64,000 nucleotides of DNA from Pedosphaera sp. (GCA_002690655.1 NZFL01000016.1:43859-107858); one strand, 5' to 3'. Counted from the stretch's first letter, positions 28,932-40,660 are shown. Notes: generated by a model from the sequence alone, not told the origin. Program-made: numbers and translations.

Positions 28932-30515
28932 CTAGCCGTTTAAGCTATCCGGCATTTTTCCGTGCAGAGATTGCAGCGACTTAATCTTGGTGATCGTGGT
29001 ACGTCCGTCGCGATCCTCGGCTTTCCCCGATAAAGTGATCGGTGTACCACAATGATATGCCAAATTGAAATGATGGAAATCGCGAAACGATACATCGATC
29101 CGGATCGAAGGATGTCTATCAACATCCATGTAAAATATCCTTGCTTCATTGAGGTCCTCAGACAATCGCAAACGCCCCTGAACAATCACGCTATTCACGT
29201 CGCTTTTCACCCAGCTTTGAAAGGGCTGCTCCTGATAGGCCTCATACGATGAGTCATCCAATCCCGGCAACGGCGTTTGGACACCGGCGTATTCAGATGG
29301 CGACACACCAAATTGCTGCATCAATGAGAGATGCAATCGACCCAATTCCTGATTTTCGGCATATCGAATGTATCGACCGGTTTTGATACGACCTTTGCCT
29401 CCAGCTAATATCATGGGAATACGTTTGACCGTGTGATTATCACTATGCCCCATTCCTGAACCGAAGATCACCATGGTGTGATCAAGAAGACTTCCATGCT
29501 GATCCTGATAGGACTTGAGCCTGTTAAGCAAATAATCGAATTTCTCCATGTGCCAGAGACTGATCTTCAAGAGGCCATCGATGTTGGATCGACTGAAATT
29601 GCGAAAGAAATGAGATAGATAATGGTGTTGTTCCTTGACCCCCAGGAAATCAAAAATCATGCGACTGTTGCTGTTTCCCAGCATGTAGCTGATGCAGCGT
29701 GTAGAATCAGTCCAGAGTGCCAATGAAATCAAATCGATCATGGATTCAACCTGTTCATTCAAATTCAAGGCTCTTGGAGGTCTTTGCGAGTCCGATACCT
29801 CAACAGCAGGAATGACGGAATTCTCAAGGTTTTCCAATCTTTTCTCAGTTTCACGGACAACGGTAAGATAGGAATCCAACACCTGCTTATCTTCGTATCC
29901 GGTGTGACGATTCAATGCACTCGTATCCTCTCGAACACGATCAAGAAGACTCGACATATGGCGCCGCTTTTCGGGGTGCTGCATCGGGTTGCGGAATAAT
30001 CGATCAAAGACCAATTGTGGATCGCTTTCACGCGGTATGGGCTGCCCTTTGTGATCATAGGAGATATAACTGCAACCGATTTGGCTTGGAAACAGTCCTT
30101 CAGTCGTCAACTCAAGAGAACGATGAGGGGTCTCATTGCCAATTTGATCTGCAATTAATTGATCAATGGAAGCCGATGCTTTGTTTTCATGATGACCTGA
30201 TAAAAAACGTCTTGTTGAACTTGCATGGGACGAGAAACCAAAGTCTCCCATGTTATCCAGAATCAGCAGATCATCTCTATGCTTCTCGAACGGCTTCATC
30301 AAAGGCGACATTCGGAAATCAAACTCAGAGCCTCCATTGATATTCCACGACGGAGGATGCACTCCATTCGGCTTGAAGAGGGTCATGAAACGTAACGGAG
30401 GTGATGCTTGAGAATGAGTTTTGCCCGACGCTTCCATAAGATTCAGCCAAGGCAAGGGTAACAAAGCGCCTGCAGCCCCTCTTAAAAAAGTACGCCGATG
30501 AATTCGATATTTCAT
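28932..30515 (-). CDS. DUF1552 protein with Tat signal
   Basis: 527 residues. The N-terminus RIHRRTFLRGAAGALLPLPW is a twin-arginine signal, so the protein is folded before export. The body fits DUF1552, a sulfatase/DUF1501-like family: LRFMTLFKPNGVHPPSW, LLILDNMGDFGFSSHASSTR, and HTMVIFGSGMGHSDNHTVKR near 350. The family is almost confined to Planctomycetes and Verrucomicrobia and is found beside DUF1592 genes, as here, where it overlaps the DUF1592 gene by 4 bp (ATGA). The biochemical role is unknown; a periplasmic hydrolase or a partner of the cytochrome-like protein is the usual inference. Confidence 0.92.
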   Translation of the reverse strand: MKYRIHRRTFLRGAAGALLPLPWLNLMEASGKTHSQASPPLRFMTLFKPNGVHPPSWNINGGSEFDFRMSPLMKPFEKHRDDLLILDNMGDFGFSSHASSTRRFLSGHHENKASASIDQLIADQIGNETPHRSLELTTEGLFPSQIGCSYISYDHKGQPIPRESDPQLVFDRLFRNPMQHPEKRRHMSSLLDRVREDTSALNRHTGYEDKQVLDSYLTVVRETEKRLENLENSVIPAVEVSDSQRPPRALNLNEQVESMIDLISLALWTDSTRCISYMLGNSNSRMIFDFLGVKEQHHYLSHFFRNFSRSNIDGLLKISLWHMEKFDYLLNRLKSYQDQHGSLLDHTMVIFGSGMGHSDNHTVKRIPMILAGGKGRIKTGRYIRYAENQELGRLHLSLMQQFGVSPSEYAGVQTPLPGLDDSSYEAYQEQPFQSWVKSDVNSVIVQGRLRLSEDLNEARIFYMDVDRHPSIRIDVSFRDFHHFNLAYHCGTPITLSGKAEDRDGRTTITKIKSLQSLHGKMPDSLNG

Positions 30516-32470
30516 AACGGTTCAGCTCTCACAAATGTTTCACGAAACGGAAGACTGTGGATGATCATTAGCAATAAATCACGATAAGTGCCATCTGTTT
30601 CTTCCATATTTGAAGCTATGGAATCCACCGTTGGCTGATCATAAAGCTCCAAGGAACGGCACAAGGCAAAAGACAGGCTGCGCTCAACGATGTTGCGAAC
30701 AATCTGCGATCGATACTCCGTTTGCAGGATTTCCTTCAGTGAATCAAAATCGGTGAATTTTGTTCCATTGGGCATGACCCCAGTTGTATCTACCTGCTCC
30801 CCTTTGTTATTCAGATACCTGACTTCCCCGTCTGGCAGCATTTTCTTACCCTTCAGAATATAGCCCCCCTGTCGATCAAATCCCTCTGCAGCAAAACCAA
30901 GTGGATCGATCTTGTCGTGGCACAAAGCACAAGATGCTTGATCGCGATGCAATTCAAATCGCTCACGAAAGCTCAGGTTTTCACCTGGTTGTTGAGGGGG
31001 CACCTGCCCCACATCCATGGGAGGATCAGGCAAATGCTCACCAAGAATTCGCTCCAGCATCCACGTTCCACGAATTACCGGCCCTCGGTTCATGGCCAGA
31101 ATACCCGGCATGGTCAATAACCCACCCCGCTCTTTTGTGTATTGCAGTTGAATGCGCTGAGTCGGCACAATTTCCAGCTCAATGCCTTTTTGCTTGCGGT
31201 AAGGTTTCAACTGATTGCGATCCTTACCATAATGTTTCGCAATCAAGGGGCTTACGAAAGAGACATCTGAATCAATCAATTCCATCAGGGGACGATCTTC
31301 AGTAAAAAGGTAATGCATGAAGTCAAGAACCTGACTGCGCATGACTTCGCGCACTGGGACCTGGCGAACCCCTTCATCGATGTCACTCAGCGAAAACCAT
31401 TGGGATGCGAAACTTTCCGAAAGGTAGCGTGACTTGGATGATTGCAGCATTCGATCTAATTGCTCTGCTACCACGTCGGATTCAAACACGACACCCTGGG
31501 CAGCCAGATCCATCAGCTCAGTATCAGGCATATCACCCCATAAAAAGTAAGACAATCGCTCAGCATACTCATGGGCATCCACACGTTGCTGAATTCCGGG
31601 CTGGCGCCGCATAAGAAACCCTCGATAAAGAAAGCCCGGCGACATGAGGGCTGCTTTCATTTCGTGTTTCAAAACCGCAAAAGGGTTCCTGGCAGATTTC
31701 ACTCGCTCCAACCTTGCTTCTAGATCTTGAGGCTCCAAAGGTCGCCGGAAAATGCGTGGCAGAAACGCACTCAGCAACTGGGTTGCCTCCCTGTGTGAGC
31801 TACCTTTGATATTTTTGGAATCGATGAAGGGGCTGAAGGTATCAAGATCCTGCGCGCCAAACCATTGATCGAGGGCGGTATCCGTTAAATACGAATACTG
31901 ACTCCATATCAGACTGGTCAGAGGGTTTCTGTGTGTGTCATTGGTGAAACCACTTTTCCCCGGAGGATCGGTTGGCAGCAGTTTCATGACCAGAGAACGT
32001 TCCACCACGGTCTGCTGTGCCTCAATAATTTGCACCTCCAAATCGAAACCAAACAAAGTCTGCAGAGTATTTCGATATTCTTCTGCAGAAAATCGTCGTG
32101 GCCTGAAGAAACCCGGATGAGCTTCAAGTGAATTCACAAACTTGTCCTGATACCACTGAGCGAAAAGGACGCGATCCTCATCCGTGGGTTGCTCCGCATC
32201 CTCAGGAGGCATTTCCCTGTCATTTATCAGGGCCGCTGCCGTTTCCCAAAGCTCAAAATGTACCTCAAATGCATCATCCGTCTCGAGGATGGAGAAATCA
32301 ACCTGACCTTTGACTTTATCCCCGCCATGACAGGAGTAGCAATATTGCCCTATGAAGCCCTTGACGTCGAAAACAGGATCTGCCGCCCAACCAGAGAGGC
32401 AACCTGAAAGCAACGCGATGATTCTGATGACGTTTCCTGACACGCTCGGGATGGCTCTCGGAGGGATCAA
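30512..32470 (-). CDS. PSCyt1/DUF1587-DUF1592-DUF1588 multi-domain exported cytochrome-like protein
   Basis: 652 residues from a TTG at 32470 that overlaps the upstream stop by 4 bp (TTGA). A GTG nine codons later (32443) gives a better signal peptide, so the start is uncertain. After the leader (core IIALLSGCLSGWA) comes a cytochrome-c-like motif YCYSCHGG with CxxCH, then the DUF1587 region FRPRRFSAEEYRNTLQTLFG, the DUF1595/DUF1592 region RRPLEPQDLEARLERVKS and YAERLSYFLWGDMPDTEL, and DUF1588 with a second CxxCH in CALCHDKIDPLGFAAEGFD; DUF1585 ends it. It probably binds two hemes in the periplasm. The gene sits between a DUF1080 and a DUF1552 gene with 4-bp overlaps on both sides. Confidence 0.92.
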   Translation of the reverse strand: MIPPRAIPSVSGNVIRIIALLSGCLSGWAADPVFDVKGFIGQYCYSCHGGDKVKGQVDFSILETDDAFEVHFELWETAAALINDREMPPEDAEQPTDEDRVLFAQWYQDKFVNSLEAHPGFFRPRRFSAEEYRNTLQTLFGFDLEVQIIEAQQTVVERSLVMKLLPTDPPGKSGFTNDTHRNPLTSLIWSQYSYLTDTALDQWFGAQDLDTFSPFIDSKNIKGSSHREATQLLSAFLPRIFRRPLEPQDLEARLERVKSARNPFAVLKHEMKAALMSPGFLYRGFLMRRQPGIQQRVDAHEYAERLSYFLWGDMPDTELMDLAAQGVVFESDVVAEQLDRMLQSSKSRYLSESFASQWFSLSDIDEGVRQVPVREVMRSQVLDFMHYLFTEDRPLMELIDSDVSFVSPLIAKHYGKDRNQLKPYRKQKGIELEIVPTQRIQLQYTKERGGLLTMPGILAMNRGPVIRGTWMLERILGEHLPDPPMDVGQVPPQQPGENLSFRERFELHRDQASCALCHDKIDPLGFAAEGFDRQGGYILKGKKMLPDGEVRYLNNKGEQVDTTGVMPNGTKFTDFDSLKEILQTEYRSQIVRNIVERSLSFALCRSLELYDQPTVDSIASNMEETDGTYRDLLLMIIHSLPFRETFVRAEPL

Positions 32471-33192
32471 GGCAGCTCACGAATCCTCAGTTTGCGGAAA
32501 ATGATGGGAGAACCTTCGCTCTCCAAACAAAGAAAACCTTGAGATGGATCACAATCAGTACCACCGGAAACCTCTTCGCCATTCACCCATAATCGCACTT
32601 CGCCATTGATAGCGCGTATGTAGTAATGATTCCATTCACCATGACCCTTTGCGAGATGCTTGCGTGGAAAGCTACGTTGTCCATTGGGTGAGACGGGAGG
32701 AAATGGGGTCATCTTCACACGCACAGGAAAAACGTCTCCATTAGTCCCAAACCAATCTGTTTTACCACCATTTGCTTTAACGCGCTCGGTGTAGCCATGA
32801 TCGAGGATTTGAACTTCGATGCCATCAGGTAATCCAGGTTTCCCCTTGTCCGTCAGGTTTTTGATGGATTCAGGGGTGACCCACACAAACACACCGGAGT
32901 TCCCAGCAGATTTCTGATGACTCCACTCCACCACCATCTCAAAATTCTCATACTGCTTGGTAGTTCGCAGAACGCTTACAGGTTTTCCCGTGCAGTAAAG
33001 CACCCCTTCCTTCCACGACCATGTATCTTTCGCGCTATTGACATGGGTGAAATCACCTTTTTTCAACGCACGCCAGCCCGGTTGCTGGTCGTCCATGAAA
33101 GCTTTCACCGTTTCAGTGTTATCAGCTGAAACATCAAGTGCGCTTTGAAAAGAAAGGATAACTCCAATTAAGATCACTGTGAATATCTTCAT
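32467..33192 (-). CDS. Exported DUF1080 (3-keto-disaccharide hydrolase family) protein
   Basis: The track start at 33201 is TTG; the ATG at 33192 gives 241 residues with a signal peptide (core IFTVILIGVILSF, cleavage near VSA). DUF1080 hallmarks are GWRALKKGDFTHVN, the NFEMVVEWSHQKSAGNSGVFVWV stretch (in two parts), GLPDGIEVQILDHGY, GEWNHYYIRAINGEVRLWVNGEEV, and the ending GFLCLESEGSPIIFRKLRIREL. It is the first gene of the three-gene operon with DUF1592 and DUF1552, so glycoside cleavage may be joined to periplasmic redox chemistry. This is one of four DUF1080 domains in the window, counting the GDSL fusion. Confidence 0.88.
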   Translation of the reverse strand: MKIFTVILIGVILSFQSALDVSADNTETVKAFMDDQQPGWRALKKGDFTHVNSAKDTWSWKEGVLYCTGKPVSVLRTTKQYENFEMVVEWSHQKSAGNSGVFVWVTPESIKNLTDKGKPGLPDGIEVQILDHGYTERVKANGGKTDWFGTNGDVFPVRVKMTPFPPVSPNGQRSFPRKHLAKGHGEWNHYYIRAINGEVRLWVNGEEVSGGTDCDPSQGFLCLESEGSPIIFRKLRIRELP

Positions 33193-33278
33193 CACCGACA
33201 ATCACTACCACTTTTTCATGTTCAGTCCCACTGCAAAGTGAACTACCAAAAAACCATCTAATGAAAAAGTGCATGCGT

Positions 33279-35643: not shown

Positions 35644-37134
35644 ATGAGCGTCATAAGAACCATCTTCGTTGCCAGCCTTCTCAGCCTGAACATTTCATGC
35701 GGCCAGAGCTCAAATAAAATCCAGACTTCAACCCAGCCCGAAGAAATCCTTCTTCCTGAAGCAATCGATGCCGTTGCGCTGACCTCTTTTGATGACTGGA
35801 TTGACAAGTGCAATCTTTTGCCAGCGAACAGAAAACTCAATGGCCGTCTTCCAAGCAAAGATCAGCTCCCTCTAAAGGACCTGAAGGAGTTCAAGTGGCT
35901 GCTTGACCAGTTTTTTGAGCAGCAACTAACAGGCCCTCTTTCAGTTAAAACAAATTGGCTGGGCGATCAACCATCAAAGGAAACGTTCTTCAACACATCC
36001 AAAGCTTATTTTGAGCAAGGAGGCATCCCATTCGAACCTTTTGCTCAGAAACTAAATTTTGATCGAGAAGCAAAAGTTCTATTTCATGGAGATCTGCATG
36101 GGGATTTACACTCCGTCAATGAATGGATCAAACACCTGAATCGTGAGGGCTCTCTGGACGGTTTCAAGGCAACTGACCCTAATTTGAACATGATGTTCCT
36201 TGGTGATTACACCGATCGTGGAGCCTATGGGGTAGAGGTCATGTATGTGTTGCTTCGATTGCGTGTCGAGAATCCCGGACAAATCTGGATGGCGCGAGGC
36301 AATCATGAAGATATTCAATTGACGATGAATTATGGTTTCTTGAAGGAAGCAACCTCCAAATATGGCCCTGAGTTTCCAATTAAACGACTATCACGCATCT
36401 ACGATTTTCTACCGGTCGTCATATATGCCGGTCATGGAAATAATTACATCCAATGCAACCACGGAGGTATAGAACCAGGCTACCTTCCTGCGGCACTGCT
36501 TGATCACGCGACTCCAGTCGCCTTTCATTTACTTGGTGATATCAAACAAAAGACCTTTCTGGATACTCACAAGGATTTAGCTCCCATTTTGGGCAGCAAC
36601 GGGAATCGAATCGCACAAGGCAATTGGAAGGATTTCATCCCCACAAGCCCCACCACCCCGACTATTCTTGGCTTCATGTGGAACGATTTCAGTATCACCA
36701 GCGAAGAAGCCAACTTGACTATCTTCCCAGGGAGGGCGTGGGTTTACGGAAAAGAACTAACCGGTAAAGTGTTGAAAGAGGGCTCCTCACCCAAAAACAA
36801 GGTCAGAGCTGTCTTCAGGGGACATCAACATTCGGGAGCCCCAAACCCAATGATGCGTCGCCTGGTGCACAGTCATGGAGTATTCAGACACTGGCAGGAA
36901 GCACGCCCCCCGTCTCCAGCGGAAAATGAAAGTTCACTGCAAGCATTGAACCTGGAAACTGGAAACAAGCGAAAACTCGTCGAAGGAGCAGCTTACACAT
37001 TCAATGTGGCTCCAGACAGCAATTACGGTGTGGGCAACCGGTATGATTTCGATACGTTTGGAATCCTTACCTTCGCTGAAACTTTCGCGGATTGGGAACT
37101 GGAAGTCGTCAACCTGACCAACATTCGATGGTAA
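35644..37134 (+). CDS. Calcineurin-like metallophosphoesterase lipoprotein
   Basis: 496 residues. The leader ends LLSLNISCGQ, a lipobox-like site, so the protein is probably a lipoprotein. The phosphoesterase core is of the Ser/Thr-phosphatase type: VLFHGDLHGDLHSVNEW near 155 (D-x-H), FLGDYTDRGAYGVEVMYVLL near 185 (GDxxDRG), IWMARGNHEDIQL near 215 (GNHE), and later VFRGHQHSGAPN near 400 (GH-x-H). These give all ligands of a dinuclear metal centre. It would remove phosphate from proteins or small molecules at the envelope, unusual for the PPP-like type. Convergent with the caspase-like gene, 14 bp apart. Confidence 0.9.
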   Translation: MSVIRTIFVASLLSLNISCGQSSNKIQTSTQPEEILLPEAIDAVALTSFDDWIDKCNLLPANRKLNGRLPSKDQLPLKDLKEFKWLLDQFFEQQLTGPLSVKTNWLGDQPSKETFFNTSKAYFEQGGIPFEPFAQKLNFDREAKVLFHGDLHGDLHSVNEWIKHLNREGSLDGFKATDPNLNMMFLGDYTDRGAYGVEVMYVLLRLRVENPGQIWMARGNHEDIQLTMNYGFLKEATSKYGPEFPIKRLSRIYDFLPVVIYAGHGNNYIQCNHGGIEPGYLPAALLDHATPVAFHLLGDIKQKTFLDTHKDLAPILGSNGNRIAQGNWKDFIPTSPTTPTILGFMWNDFSITSEEANLTIFPGRAWVYGKELTGKVLKEGSSPKNKVRAVFRGHQHSGAPNPMMRRLVHSHGVFRHWQEARPPSPAENESSLQALNLETGNKRKLVEGAAYTFNVAPDSNYGVGNRYDFDTFGILTFAETFADWELEVVNLTNIRW

Positions 37135-37148
37135 ATGTGCGATGATCT

Positions 37149-38195
37149 TTATCGCTTATTGATCTCGGCCTGATCTGTATCCAGCGATTGGTAAAGTTCA
37201 GCAAAAGGGATCAATAAGGCTTCCAAGCGTTTGTAGTAAGCCTCGTCATCCATGTCCTCACGATGATCACGCAATTCGAAGATAGCCTGTTCAAGCACAT
37301 CTCTTTGTTGCTTGACCTCAGGTGACATAAGGCTTTCGATTTCATTTTCAATCAAGTGAAACTGGGATGCAATACGACCATCAGGCTGGTTACTTCCTTC
37401 AGCCCTTTTCACTGGCCGCACTCCCTTGAACCAATTAGCAGGGATACCTTTTTGATCACCTGTATCATCAAGAAGCGCATGCTCCGAAGCAAGGCGACCT
37501 TCGATTTCGTAAAATTCTCCCACTTGCCTTGAGGCCATGATAAAGGCTTCCAGCAAGGACGTTTGACCGTCTTTGTCAAGATCCGCTGATTCACTGCCAA
37601 ATGCATTCACTAGGTAGGACCCAAAACGGGCGAAATTTAATTCAAAGCCGTCTCGGGTCGCAGTAAGCACCACACGATTGGGTCCGGACAGTGCATTTAG
37701 AAATGGCGCTGAAGCGGAGGAGGTGTTCATGACAGCCACAGGCCGTTTCAAAGGCTTTAGCCATGAGGCCAGTTCCTCACTCGAAATGTCAGGTCCTTTG
37801 ACATTGAACTTGGCGGTTCGACCATTGAAAGTGCCGTGACCTATGAGAGCAATCCAGAGGGGCTCCTGAGTTTCTTTAGAATATACTTCAATTTTTTTCT
37901 TTAAAAGATCCTTGAGAGATCCCTCCGCAGAGTCAGGTTCAAAGGAACCAAGCAGCTCAACTCGGGCTTGGGCTTCCTCTCCTACCGCCTTCAGCATTGT
38001 TGCCCACTCTACAAACATTTCGCCATAAGATGCTTCTCCCCCCGCTCCGACCACTATCAAAAGATCTGCATTATTTCCGGGCACTCCTTGCTCAGCACCT
38101 TGTACGAGATTGGATTGCAACAACGACATCAGCAATAGCGTTGAAGCAAGGAGGGTTTGCCCCTTCTTACAGCACATTGACCGTGTTTTCATCAT
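37149..38195 (-). CDS. Exported caspase-fold/C13-peptidase-like protein lacking the catalytic cysteine
   Basis: I start at the ATG at 38195, which overlaps the upstream stop as TGATG; the track ORF from 38279 runs into the upstream gene. 348 residues with a signal peptide (core TLLASTLLLMSLLQSN, cleavage near VQGA). ADLLIVVGAGGEASYGEMF, WIALIGHGTFNGRTAKFNV with His-Gly, then VAVMNTSSASAPFLNAL and RVVLTATRDGFELNFARFGSYLV follow the strand order of caspase/legumain-like domains. At the position of the nucleophilic Cys there is a Ser-rich NTSSAS, so it is probably not a cysteine protease. The C-terminal 100 residues form charged helices. The coupling to the vWA membrane protein suggests a joint function. 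Confidence 0.65.
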   Translation of the reverse strand: MMKTRSMCCKKGQTLLASTLLLMSLLQSNLVQGAEQGVPGNNADLLIVVGAGGEASYGEMFVEWATMLKAVGEEAQARVELLGSFEPDSAEGSLKDLLKKKIEVYSKETQEPLWIALIGHGTFNGRTAKFNVKGPDISSEELASWLKPLKRPVAVMNTSSASAPFLNALSGPNRVVLTATRDGFELNFARFGSYLVNAFGSESADLDKDGQTSLLEAFIMASRQVGEFYEIEGRLASEHALLDDTGDQKGIPANWFKGVRPVKRAEGSNQPDGRIASQFHLIENEIESLMSPEVKQQRDVLEQAIFELRDHREDMDDEAYYKRLEALLIPFAELYQSLDTDQAEINKR

Positions 38196-40660
38196 CAAGC
38201 CAAGCCTCGCTTCCTGCGCATATACCACTCCAAAGCAAATAATCCCAATGAAGCTATGAACAAATAGGGTGTGTGCCATATCGGGGCAGAGATTGTTTCC
38301 ATGACAGGTGCTGCTTCAAACTGCAGTCCCTCAGCCCACCCATCTAACTCGCTTCGCTTGAGAACTCGGCCTCCGGTTTTTTGGGCAACTGCATCCATCC
38401 ATGAGTGATGAGGCAGCAACGATTGAAACTCTTCAGCGCTGGGGTCATTGGTCCACCCAGCCTCCTCTCGAGCAATCACAGCTCCGTTGGCATCGGTGAC
38501 TTCCACTTCCATGTGATAGCCACCTTCAAGGCGCGGAACATAGGTGGCCTGATACAAGCCAGGTTCCTTCATGCTGGGCTCCGCGATCAGCTGGACTTCG
38601 CTATGCTGCATACCACCTGTTGGCTTTTCAGCTACCTCATTGCCGGTTTCCCCTGTGGTGAGAGTCTTCACTGTCAATCGGACGTTTGCGTTATCAATTG
38701 GCCAGTATTTCTCATCCTTGACCCCTACCTGAATGCGCATGGTAGATCCCGATTTAGTTTGCTCGCGTTGCAAGTCAATGTCGATACGACTCGGCACATC
38801 AGCGATCAATCCACGAATCATCTGACGCCAAGCCTTGCCCAAATCGCCGCTATCAGTTTGATCATGCATCTGCCAACGCCACAAATCTCCGACTGCCAGG
38901 ACCATGCTGCGACCGGAACCATAGCGCTGGCTGACCAGGGCTGGATAAGTTTCACCTGAGTATTTGCTCTTTGCCTGCATCAAAACAGAGGCCCCGGGCT
39001 TGACTTCAGTCACCAGATTGATGACTTGAAACTCGGGCATGGATTCCAACCTTTCATTCTCCAGAGACTCAGTGGAACGCAGACGGATCCAAGGTTGAAG
39101 CCAGCCTTCGCGGGTCAACTCCAAAGAAACTCCCCGGACTCCAGATAGACCTTTGCCTGAATCAAGATAGACTGGAAGCATTCTGCCGATCGGAGTATCC
39201 TCATAATCGCCACGAGTGAGTGATTCATATCCACCCAACATCATTAAACCACCACCACGTTCTGAAACAAATTTCTGGATCAGGCTCATTTGATCACGTG
39301 TGAAGAAACCCGATTCCAGATCATCAAGAATAATAGCACTGTAACCAAAAAGATTCTCTGCCCTCTTGGGGAAACCTCCTATGAGTTCAGATTCGTCTTT
39401 GATGTTAAGTCGCGTGAAAACAGCCTGGTCAAGCTGCTCAGTAAATTCATCTTTTTTGTCAAAACCACGATACAGAGGATTGCTCGTCTCACCTTGACGC
39501 CCTTTGAACTCAAATTTAGGAGCCTTTTTGGCAATACGAATCAACCCCACCAGCTGCACTTGATCATCTTCATCAAGGGATCGGTTCAAAAATTTGTATT
39601 CCCAGTTGGGACGGCCTGCTACGTAAAGAATGCGATGCGGCTCGGAATCGCGGTCCACGATGGCCAGACGTCTGTTGTTAGCCATGGTAGCTTCTTCCGT
39701 TGACGCATCGCCCGCCAGCGAGTCGGCAACTACTGACACTTCCAGTCTGCAAAACGATACGCCGGTTTGCTCGGGTCGAAACTGGAACCGAAAAGCCAGT
39801 GTCTCCTGATCACTGGAGACTTCTTTAACCAAACTGTCAATAGGTGCTTGGCCTTCGATGCTGGAAGAAGATTCATCAATCTTGACACCTTCACTGAAAG
39901 GTGATTTTGAAAAATTTGCAGCGAACAATCGCGCCTCTACCTCACGGCCAGCGAACCCAATCGAAGAAATGTCCGCAATCAAAGTAACGGGCGCATCCTC
40001 GAAGGCAGTCTGGCTAAGGGACATACTGGTAATGGAAACATCTCGAGAGGATTCTTTTGAACCAATGACGACAGGATAAACTGGTGGCAGGTCGGCTAGA
40101 TCAAGTTGATCCAGATCAGCATCAGTTGCGTTCCCGTCACTGACCAACAGTATGCCAGCGAGTGGCTGATCACGGAAGCGTGAACCCAGTTGATGTAAAG
40201 CAGAGCCCAGTGCGCTGGCACCCCCATCAAAAGTCAATTCGGAGAAATCCTTGAGGCCATGCAAGCGTGAGTCAATTCCGTATTTTCTGACCTGAAACAT
40301 ATCGTCCAGCGTATCACGCCAGAAGCCGGGTTCGGTCACCAGCAGCTTGGTCATTTCTTCACCACGGCTTCGGTTCAACCCCGGATCGAAAATAGACATA
40401 CTCTGGCTGTTGTCAGCAACCACGGCATAGTAGTTTGCACCAGCTTCGGGTTTTTGCTGCGTCCACTGCGGCTCCAGCAAACACAAAACTAACAGGGCAA
40501 CCGCAAAACCTTTCAGGAGAATACAAGTGATGCGGCGTCCGATAGAAATTCCTGTGCCTCGATAGGACCAGACCAGAATCAAGAGGAATACAGCAAAACC
40601 TCCCAGCAAGCCGGGCAGCCACTCCGGCGATGAGATAATGATTTTCCCGGGCAATTCCAT
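38195..40660 (-). CDS. Membrane protein with vWA-like and glutamine-amidotransferase-like domains
   Basis: 821 residues. Two N-terminal helices (about 13-33 and 48-64) and one near the C-terminus (about 795-812) enclose a large periplasmic part, an arrangement common in PVC proteins next to BatA-like genes. A vWA-like domain starts at about 75 with YYAVVADNSQSMSIFD (D-x-S-x-S metal site) and continues with AGILLVSDGNATDADL. The region 430-520 with GYSAIILDDLESGFFT, RGGGLMMLGGYESLTRG and GRMLPVYLD resembles class I glutamine-amidotransferase-like folds without evident catalysis. VLMQAKSKYSGETYPALVSQ and GSGRSMVLAVGDLWRWQM follow. It is the first gene of a pair with the caspase-like protein. 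Confidence 0.82.
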   Translation of the reverse strand: MELPGKIIISSPEWLPGLLGGFAVFLLILVWSYRGTGISIGRRITCILLKGFAVALLVLCLLEPQWTQQKPEAGANYYAVVADNSQSMSIFDPGLNRSRGEEMTKLLVTEPGFWRDTLDDMFQVRKYGIDSRLHGLKDFSELTFDGGASALGSALHQLGSRFRDQPLAGILLVSDGNATDADLDQLDLADLPPVYPVVIGSKESSRDVSITSMSLSQTAFEDAPVTLIADISSIGFAGREVEARLFAANFSKSPFSEGVKIDESSSSIEGQAPIDSLVKEVSSDQETLAFRFQFRPEQTGVSFCRLEVSVVADSLAGDASTEEATMANNRRLAIVDRDSEPHRILYVAGRPNWEYKFLNRSLDEDDQVQLVGLIRIAKKAPKFEFKGRQGETSNPLYRGFDKKDEFTEQLDQAVFTRLNIKDESELIGGFPKRAENLFGYSAIILDDLESGFFTRDQMSLIQKFVSERGGGLMMLGGYESLTRGDYEDTPIGRMLPVYLDSGKGLSGVRGVSLELTREGWLQPWIRLRSTESLENERLESMPEFQVINLVTEVKPGASVLMQAKSKYSGETYPALVSQRYGSGRSMVLAVGDLWRWQMHDQTDSGDLGKAWRQMIRGLIADVPSRIDIDLQREQTKSGSTMRIQVGVKDEKYWPIDNANVRLTVKTLTTGETGNEVAEKPTGGMQHSEVQLIAEPSMKEPGLYQATYVPRLEGGYHMEVEVTDANGAVIAREEAGWTNDPSAEEFQSLLPHHSWMDAVAQKTGGRVLKRSELDGWAEGLQFEAAPVMETISAPIWHTPYLFIASLGLFALEWYMRRKRGLA

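Follow-up and report, generated by a model that had tools for sequence, protein, structure and literature searches.

What does a caspase-like protein without a catalytic cysteine do when its gene begins inside the stop codon of a gene for a membrane protein? The question is raised by a gene pair in a 64,000-nucleotide stretch of DNA from Pedosphaera sp., which is referred to here as the window. The original prediction described the downstream product as an exported, Cys-less caspase-like protein, coupled in translation to an upstream membrane protein of 821 residues, and suggested that the two may act as an envelope sensor or assembly factor. Both open reading frames, and the TGATG in which the second was said to start, are present in the window, and we refer to the upstream gene as P1 and to the downstream gene as P2.

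38195..40660, minus strand: P1, a membrane protein of 821 residues, an open reading frame with transmembrane (TM) helices at residues 12-34, 40-61 and 798-816.
37149..38195, minus strand: P2, a Cys-less protein of 348 residues with a predicted caspase fold and an N-terminal signal-like helix at residues 13-28.
38193..38197, minus strand: TGATG, in which the P1 stop and the P2 start overlap by one base.

Open reading frame finding alone gives a P2 of 376 residues from an ATG inside P1, and a TTG that lies four bases ahead of where the P1 stop ends is in frame as well; since the homologues of P2 begin at the P1 stop, with an overlap of -4 or -1, we set the start there and take P2 to have 348 residues. 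Stop and start overlap in 76 of the 95 evaluable loci (of 104 distinct ones), mostly as ATGA or GTGA, while a gap of 0-165 nt separates the two genes in 16 and they lie further apart in only three. Across 58 related genomes, P1 and P2 occur together in 33, P2 occurs alone in two (G029 and G048, which have no close P1), P1 alone in none, and neither is found in 23 (Fisher p = 3e-14). Chance does not account for the pairing. When one genome per species was scanned, at least 545 relatives were confirmed, and the best 80 that were kept come mostly from Verrucomicrobiota and Planctomycetota MAGs according to their record titles, a sample that leans to closer relatives because only the best matches were retained. 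The pair is conserved well beyond Verrucomicrobiota, into Planctomycetota. Neither of the two outcomes named in advance as refuting, absence of a caspase fold and lack of conservation of the pair, came about; the first reading was incomplete, missing the third TM helix of P1 (798-816) and the rest of a six-gene operon. A promoter scan showed no excess.

Some observations on individual records and on the surroundings may be added. Three records titled as Klebsiella pneumoniae or Akkermansia muciniphila MAGs (L138, L109 and L127) bear a typical planctomycete or verrucomicrobial P2, and their titles are probably mislabelled. At one locus of a same-genus genome (L031, G003), both P1 and P2 are broken by frame changes or a stop, through assembly error or decay. 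Elsewhere in the window, a calcineurin-like phosphoesterase-type protein (35644-37134, judged by eye) is convergent with P2, and a similar neighbour is seen at nine loci; a three-gene block at 28932-33201 resembles, again by eye, a set of DUF1552, DUF1592-type and DUF1080-type genes.

Clustering of the neighbouring genes revealed a constant gene order upstream of P2, and P1-P2 is the distal end of the six-gene operon. One locus (L159) carries the full set, namely MoxR, DUF58, BatA/vWA, a DUF4175-like protein of about 1250 residues, P1 and P2; Pfam runs on the operon partners confirmed MoxR (AAA_3), DUF58 and BatA, and matched DUF4175 weakly, in one case. The window genome has the set divided among three loci, with P1-P2 on contig C7 and the remainder on contigs C3 and C8, which is why the full operon could not be seen when the window was first read.

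L191:6382-11461, on C3: MoxR-DUF58-BatA operon of the window genome, with a DUF4159 gene ahead of it.
L190:7493-11212, on C8: lone DUF4175-like gene of the window genome, 1239 residues.

The same split is found in a single-contig relative (G008), where P2 lies at 3.44 Mb, the DUF4175-like gene at 3.90 Mb and BatA at 0.61 Mb. P1 and P2 remain together where the operon is broken up, and P2 co-occurs with the DUF4175-like gene (p = 2e-10) and with BatA (p = 2e-9). No VMAP-type component was listed in the Pfam scans of the operons.

P1 is laid out as two N-terminal TM helices (12-34 and 40-61, the helix pair noticed at the outset), a vWA-like region, a GATase1-like domain, a beta-sandwich region, a C-terminal TM helix and an RRKRG tail; by the usual topology rules, the large region between the N- and C-terminal TM helices would be periplasmic.

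38213..38269, minus strand: C-terminal TM helix of P1, residues 798-816.
40400..40414, minus strand: MIDAS-type motif of P1, D83-N-S85-Q-S87.
38813..39382, minus strand: GATase1-like domain of P1, residues 427-616 (PF07090, E 8e-8, above the Pfam cut-off).

The D-x-S-x-S metal site that had been read in P1 is indeed present in the window (D83-S85-S87), but its last Ser does not hold for the family. Among 85 homologues D83, S85 and D175 are essentially invariant, whereas position 87 is Ser in 31 and Gly in 54; position 149 is Ser in 61 and Thr in 23. An intact vWA MIDAS consists of DxSxS, T and D, and that of P1 appears incomplete in most homologues. The glutamine-amidotransferase-like middle, also proposed earlier, is confirmed by the PF07090 match. 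The fold search gave a few weak class I GATase-type matches for P1, and with the whole P1 model it returned very low TM-scores, mainly to beta-sandwich enzymes, and was little informative. At the nucleophile elbow, the homologue alignment has no conserved Cys at 478-480, G476 and G477 being invariant or nearly so, and the conserved Cys columns of P1 (46, 60 and 807) lie only within TM helices.

For P2, sequence searches against Pfam, NCBIfam and the PDB (phmmer) gave nothing usable, a profile search of PDB sequences gave chance-level matches only, and there was no match to PF00656; PF01650 appeared weakly in 4 of 33 relatives (best 0.03), and the window P2 has no Pfam match above the cut-off. 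An AlphaFold model built from 33 homologues reached a mean pLDDT of 89.8 and a pTM of 0.85, and its top Foldseek matches in the PDB are caspase-11, Dronc, MALT1, GPI transamidase, metacaspase 9 and a CHAT protein, with probability 1.00. The best E value is about 1e-6, and the TM-scores are 0.35-0.45 by query length and about 0.5-0.6 by target (small caspase chains), modest values that would be expected for remote members of one fold. A search of a viral library yielded only further caspase or metacaspase relatives. P2 is predicted from this model to have the caspase-hemoglobinase (clan CD) fold, and the caspase/C13-like resemblance suggested from the sequence has come through the structure search. 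Its hydrophobic helix at residues 13-28 is typical of a signal peptide and would direct P2, once exported, to the periplasm.

The missing cysteine can be followed in three columns of P2.

37836..37838, minus strand: codon of P2 H120, in the HG motif (GHGT), the catalytic-His column; invariant, 104/104.
37716..37718, minus strand: codon of P2 S160, the catalytic-Cys column.
37710..37712, minus strand: codon of P2 S162, equivalent of the CxSG Ser; invariant, 104/104.

The LIGHGT segment and the Ser-rich nucleophile region (NTSSASAPF), on which the first reading relied, are both real. Seven C13-like peptidases of the same phylum, fetched by PF01650, formed the comparison set, and a pairwise profile alignment of P2 with them (probability 95.8; E 7e-9, which flatters, being the value of a single comparison with no database search) places H120 in the catalytic-His column, S160 in the Cys column and S162 at the Ser of CxSG. 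Over the motif, a mixed alignment has no gaps, and its column 160 is Cys in 7/7 C13-like proteins and in no P2 relative. No profile alignment of P2 to local C14 proteins was obtained. Over the 104 family members, position 160 is Ser in 97 (93%), Ala in four, Pro in two and Gly in one, and never Cys; the seven non-Ser members come from both phyla and keep the rest of the signature intact. The homologue of Aquisphaera insulae (L130) has Ala there; this species and Limnoglobus roseus (L134) are harmless environmental carriers that can be cultured. As judged from these alignments, the catalytic Cys is lost across the whole P2 family, and the loss noted in the window is shared by all its relatives. 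Two other residues were considered as nucleophiles and rejected, S162, which aligns with the CxSG Ser and persists in two remote paralogues that lack the His (L152 and L154), and residue 158 (Cys in 42/104, Thr in 43/104), which precedes the Cys column by two positions and elsewhere takes Thr, Ala, Ser or Gly.

The residues that never change in the 104 members are H120, D136, S162, D205, D207, D209, S213, E216, D244 and D247, several of which fall in one loop.

37548..37583, minus strand: EF-hand-type loop of P2, residues 205-216, DLDKDGQTSLLE; D205, D207, D209, S213 and E216 invariant.

The loop fits the DxDxDGxxSxxE EF-hand pattern and reads as a canonical loop, and EF-hand_5 matches weakly in 7 of 33 members; P2 is probably stabilised by calcium. 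Two of the C13-like proteins of the same phylum (L179 and L183) show an EF-hand-like stretch downstream, NGDGVVSFAEA and NGDGYVSMDEA.

How far does the association with MoxR-type genes extend? The remote matches of a profile search over 289 genomes from the phylum, together with one match found earlier, amount to 12 loci (L145-L156), and with no operon criterion used, all 12 adjoin MoxR, DUF58, BatA, DUF4159 or P1-like genes. The remote homologues take three forms: small proteins beside MoxR (L145 and L146), proteins encoded next to DUF4159 and a P1-like gene (L148, L150 and L153), and seven proteins fused with a transglutaminase domain, in some cases with DUF3857 as well (L147, L149, L151, L152 and L154-L156), for three of which Pfam was run while the others were assigned by alignment to those. 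The fused transglutaminase domain keeps its C-H-D triad by sequence. None of the 12 has Cys at column 160, which is A, E, P or R in the transglutaminase-fused proteins and Ser or Thr in the stand-alone ones. As far as searched, a Cys-less caspase-like domain fused to a transglutaminase next to MoxR-operon genes is an undescribed architecture.

With moderate confidence, we propose that P2 is an exported, periplasmic pseudopeptidase of the caspase fold and that, in Planctomycetota and Verrucomicrobiota, it forms a fixed part of a Bat-type MoxR-vWA assembly machine. First of all, MoxR, a cytoplasmic AAA+ ATPase, would work together with DUF58, BatA and P1, the last two being vWA proteins anchored in the membrane, to remodel or assemble envelope clients. 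Second, P2 would bind P1 on the periplasmic side. Third, the old protease cleft of P2, in which His120 persists and Ser160 takes the place of the Cys, would hold a peptide of a client or partner and not cut it. The last two steps are proposed by analogy with studied MoxR-vWA systems, in which the vWA protein captures a client peptide and MoxR remodels the client; in MoxR-vWA ternary systems, about 70% of the caspase domains that occupy the effector position in fusions with vWA are inactive, and these have been proposed to be peptide-binding domains or dominant negatives (PMC7159879). Of the two roles first suggested for the pair, the context favours assembly or remodelling over a sensor. The Bat-type assembly role is itself putative: when batABD was deleted in Leptospira biflexa, no phenotype was seen in growth or under oxidative stress (PMC3557215). 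The two genomes with P2 but no close P1, and the incomplete MIDAS of P1 in most homologues, also weigh against the proposal.

Is the site of P2 really dead? The invariance of H120 and the 93% Ser at position 160 exceed the constraint that a fully dead site needs, and retention of Ser or Thr by the stand-alone remote homologues likewise speaks against a pseudopeptidase. With Ser exactly in the Cys column of 97/104 members and strong conservation of the whole P2 domain, as expected of an enzyme, P2 could be an active caspase-fold hydrolase or transpeptidase in which Ser160 is the nucleophile with His120, possibly activated by calcium. We regard this as unlikely, since Ala, Pro or Gly stands at 160 in seven members where all else is conserved and since the transglutaminase-fused homologues tolerate other residues there. 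Doubtful, too, is an enzyme that has switched from Cys to Ser and acts on envelope proteins under MoxR-vWA control, the Ala, Pro and Gly members being secondary losses. Caspase-fold peptidases are known as cysteine enzymes. In cyanobacteria, caspase relatives that contain Ser are regarded as presumably inactive (PMC6426788). The balance favours a binding or scaffolding role for P2 over an enzymatic one because of the seven members with Ala, Pro or Gly, the A, E, P or R of remote paralogues and the two paralogues without His. Of the "inactive or Ser-based peptidase" suggested for P2, the Ser-based half is weakened by these seven members. P1, with no conserved GATase nucleophile Cys and a MIDAS that is incomplete in most homologues, seems to show the same trend.

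The transglutaminase fusions, with their triad kept in all seven, and the dominant-negative roles that have been suggested for the inactive caspases of MoxR-vWA systems (PMC7159879) would also suit a regulator acting by mimicry, in which P2 binds and restrains a true protease or shields substrates from it, the protease being, for instance, a transglutaminase-like or C13-like cysteine peptidase of these bacteria. This is improbable in our view: the window genome and its nearest relatives have no PF01650 match, and so no obvious C13 target, and there is no recognised protease in the core operon. It is very improbable that the operon serves conflict or immunity in the manner of the VMAP MoxR-vWA ternary systems, with P2 as an inactive effector. 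The component logic of MoxR, vWA and an often inactive caspase domain is shared, and VMAP systems do occur in planctomycetes (PMC7159879), but nearly every genome with a match has a single copy of P2, the gene set stays the same and includes no variable effector, the proteins seem to be exported, and two phyla share the system widely, all of which is unlike the variable effectors described.

The pseudopeptidase subunit that we propose resembles several known systems. C13-like bacterial cysteine peptidases (PF01650) share the caspase fold and align with P2 in the His and CxSG columns, whereas P2 has Ser, Ala, Pro or Gly for the Cys and sits in MoxR-vWA operons. Pseudo-orthocaspases (C14 p20 with an altered dyad; PMC6426788, PMC7889975) are likewise prokaryotic caspase folds with a replaced dyad, but those proteins are related to C14 and have usually replaced the His as well (YS, YN, YG), while P2 keeps it. 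Trypanosome MCA4 is cited as a pseudopeptidase in PMC4850289. Bat (Bacteroides aerotolerance) operons have the MoxR, DUF58 and BatA N-terminal/vWA genes, to which the P1-P2 operon adds a DUF4175-like protein, the vWA-GATase protein P1 and the caspase-fold P2. VMAP systems also combine MoxR, vWA and often inactive caspase-superfamily domains (PMC7159879); they have variable effectors and a VMAP component, in contrast to a constant exported subunit and no recognised VMAP here. Finally, the envelope system PA2875-PA2874-TgpA of P. aeruginosa includes a transglutaminase-like domain in the periplasm and can be compared with the remote homologues fused to transglutaminase, but its description mentions no caspase-fold domain (PMC3507681).

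Inactive caspase homologues are already known, as are Bat-type operons, whose function is putative (PMC3557215); what appears new is the caspase-fold P2 as a constant part of the operon, which neither Pfam nor NCBIfam covers with a family. Our searches of open-licence papers found no description of the P2 family or of a constant caspase-fold subunit of Bat-type operons. MoxR-vWA operons occur widely, yet little is understood of their periplasmic side. Here a constant caspase-fold subunit appears in three architectures, as the partner of P1 or a P1-like protein, as a small protein next to MoxR and as a transglutaminase fusion, and the P1-P2 pair offers a concrete handle on the Bat-type machines of planctomycetes and verrucomicrobia.
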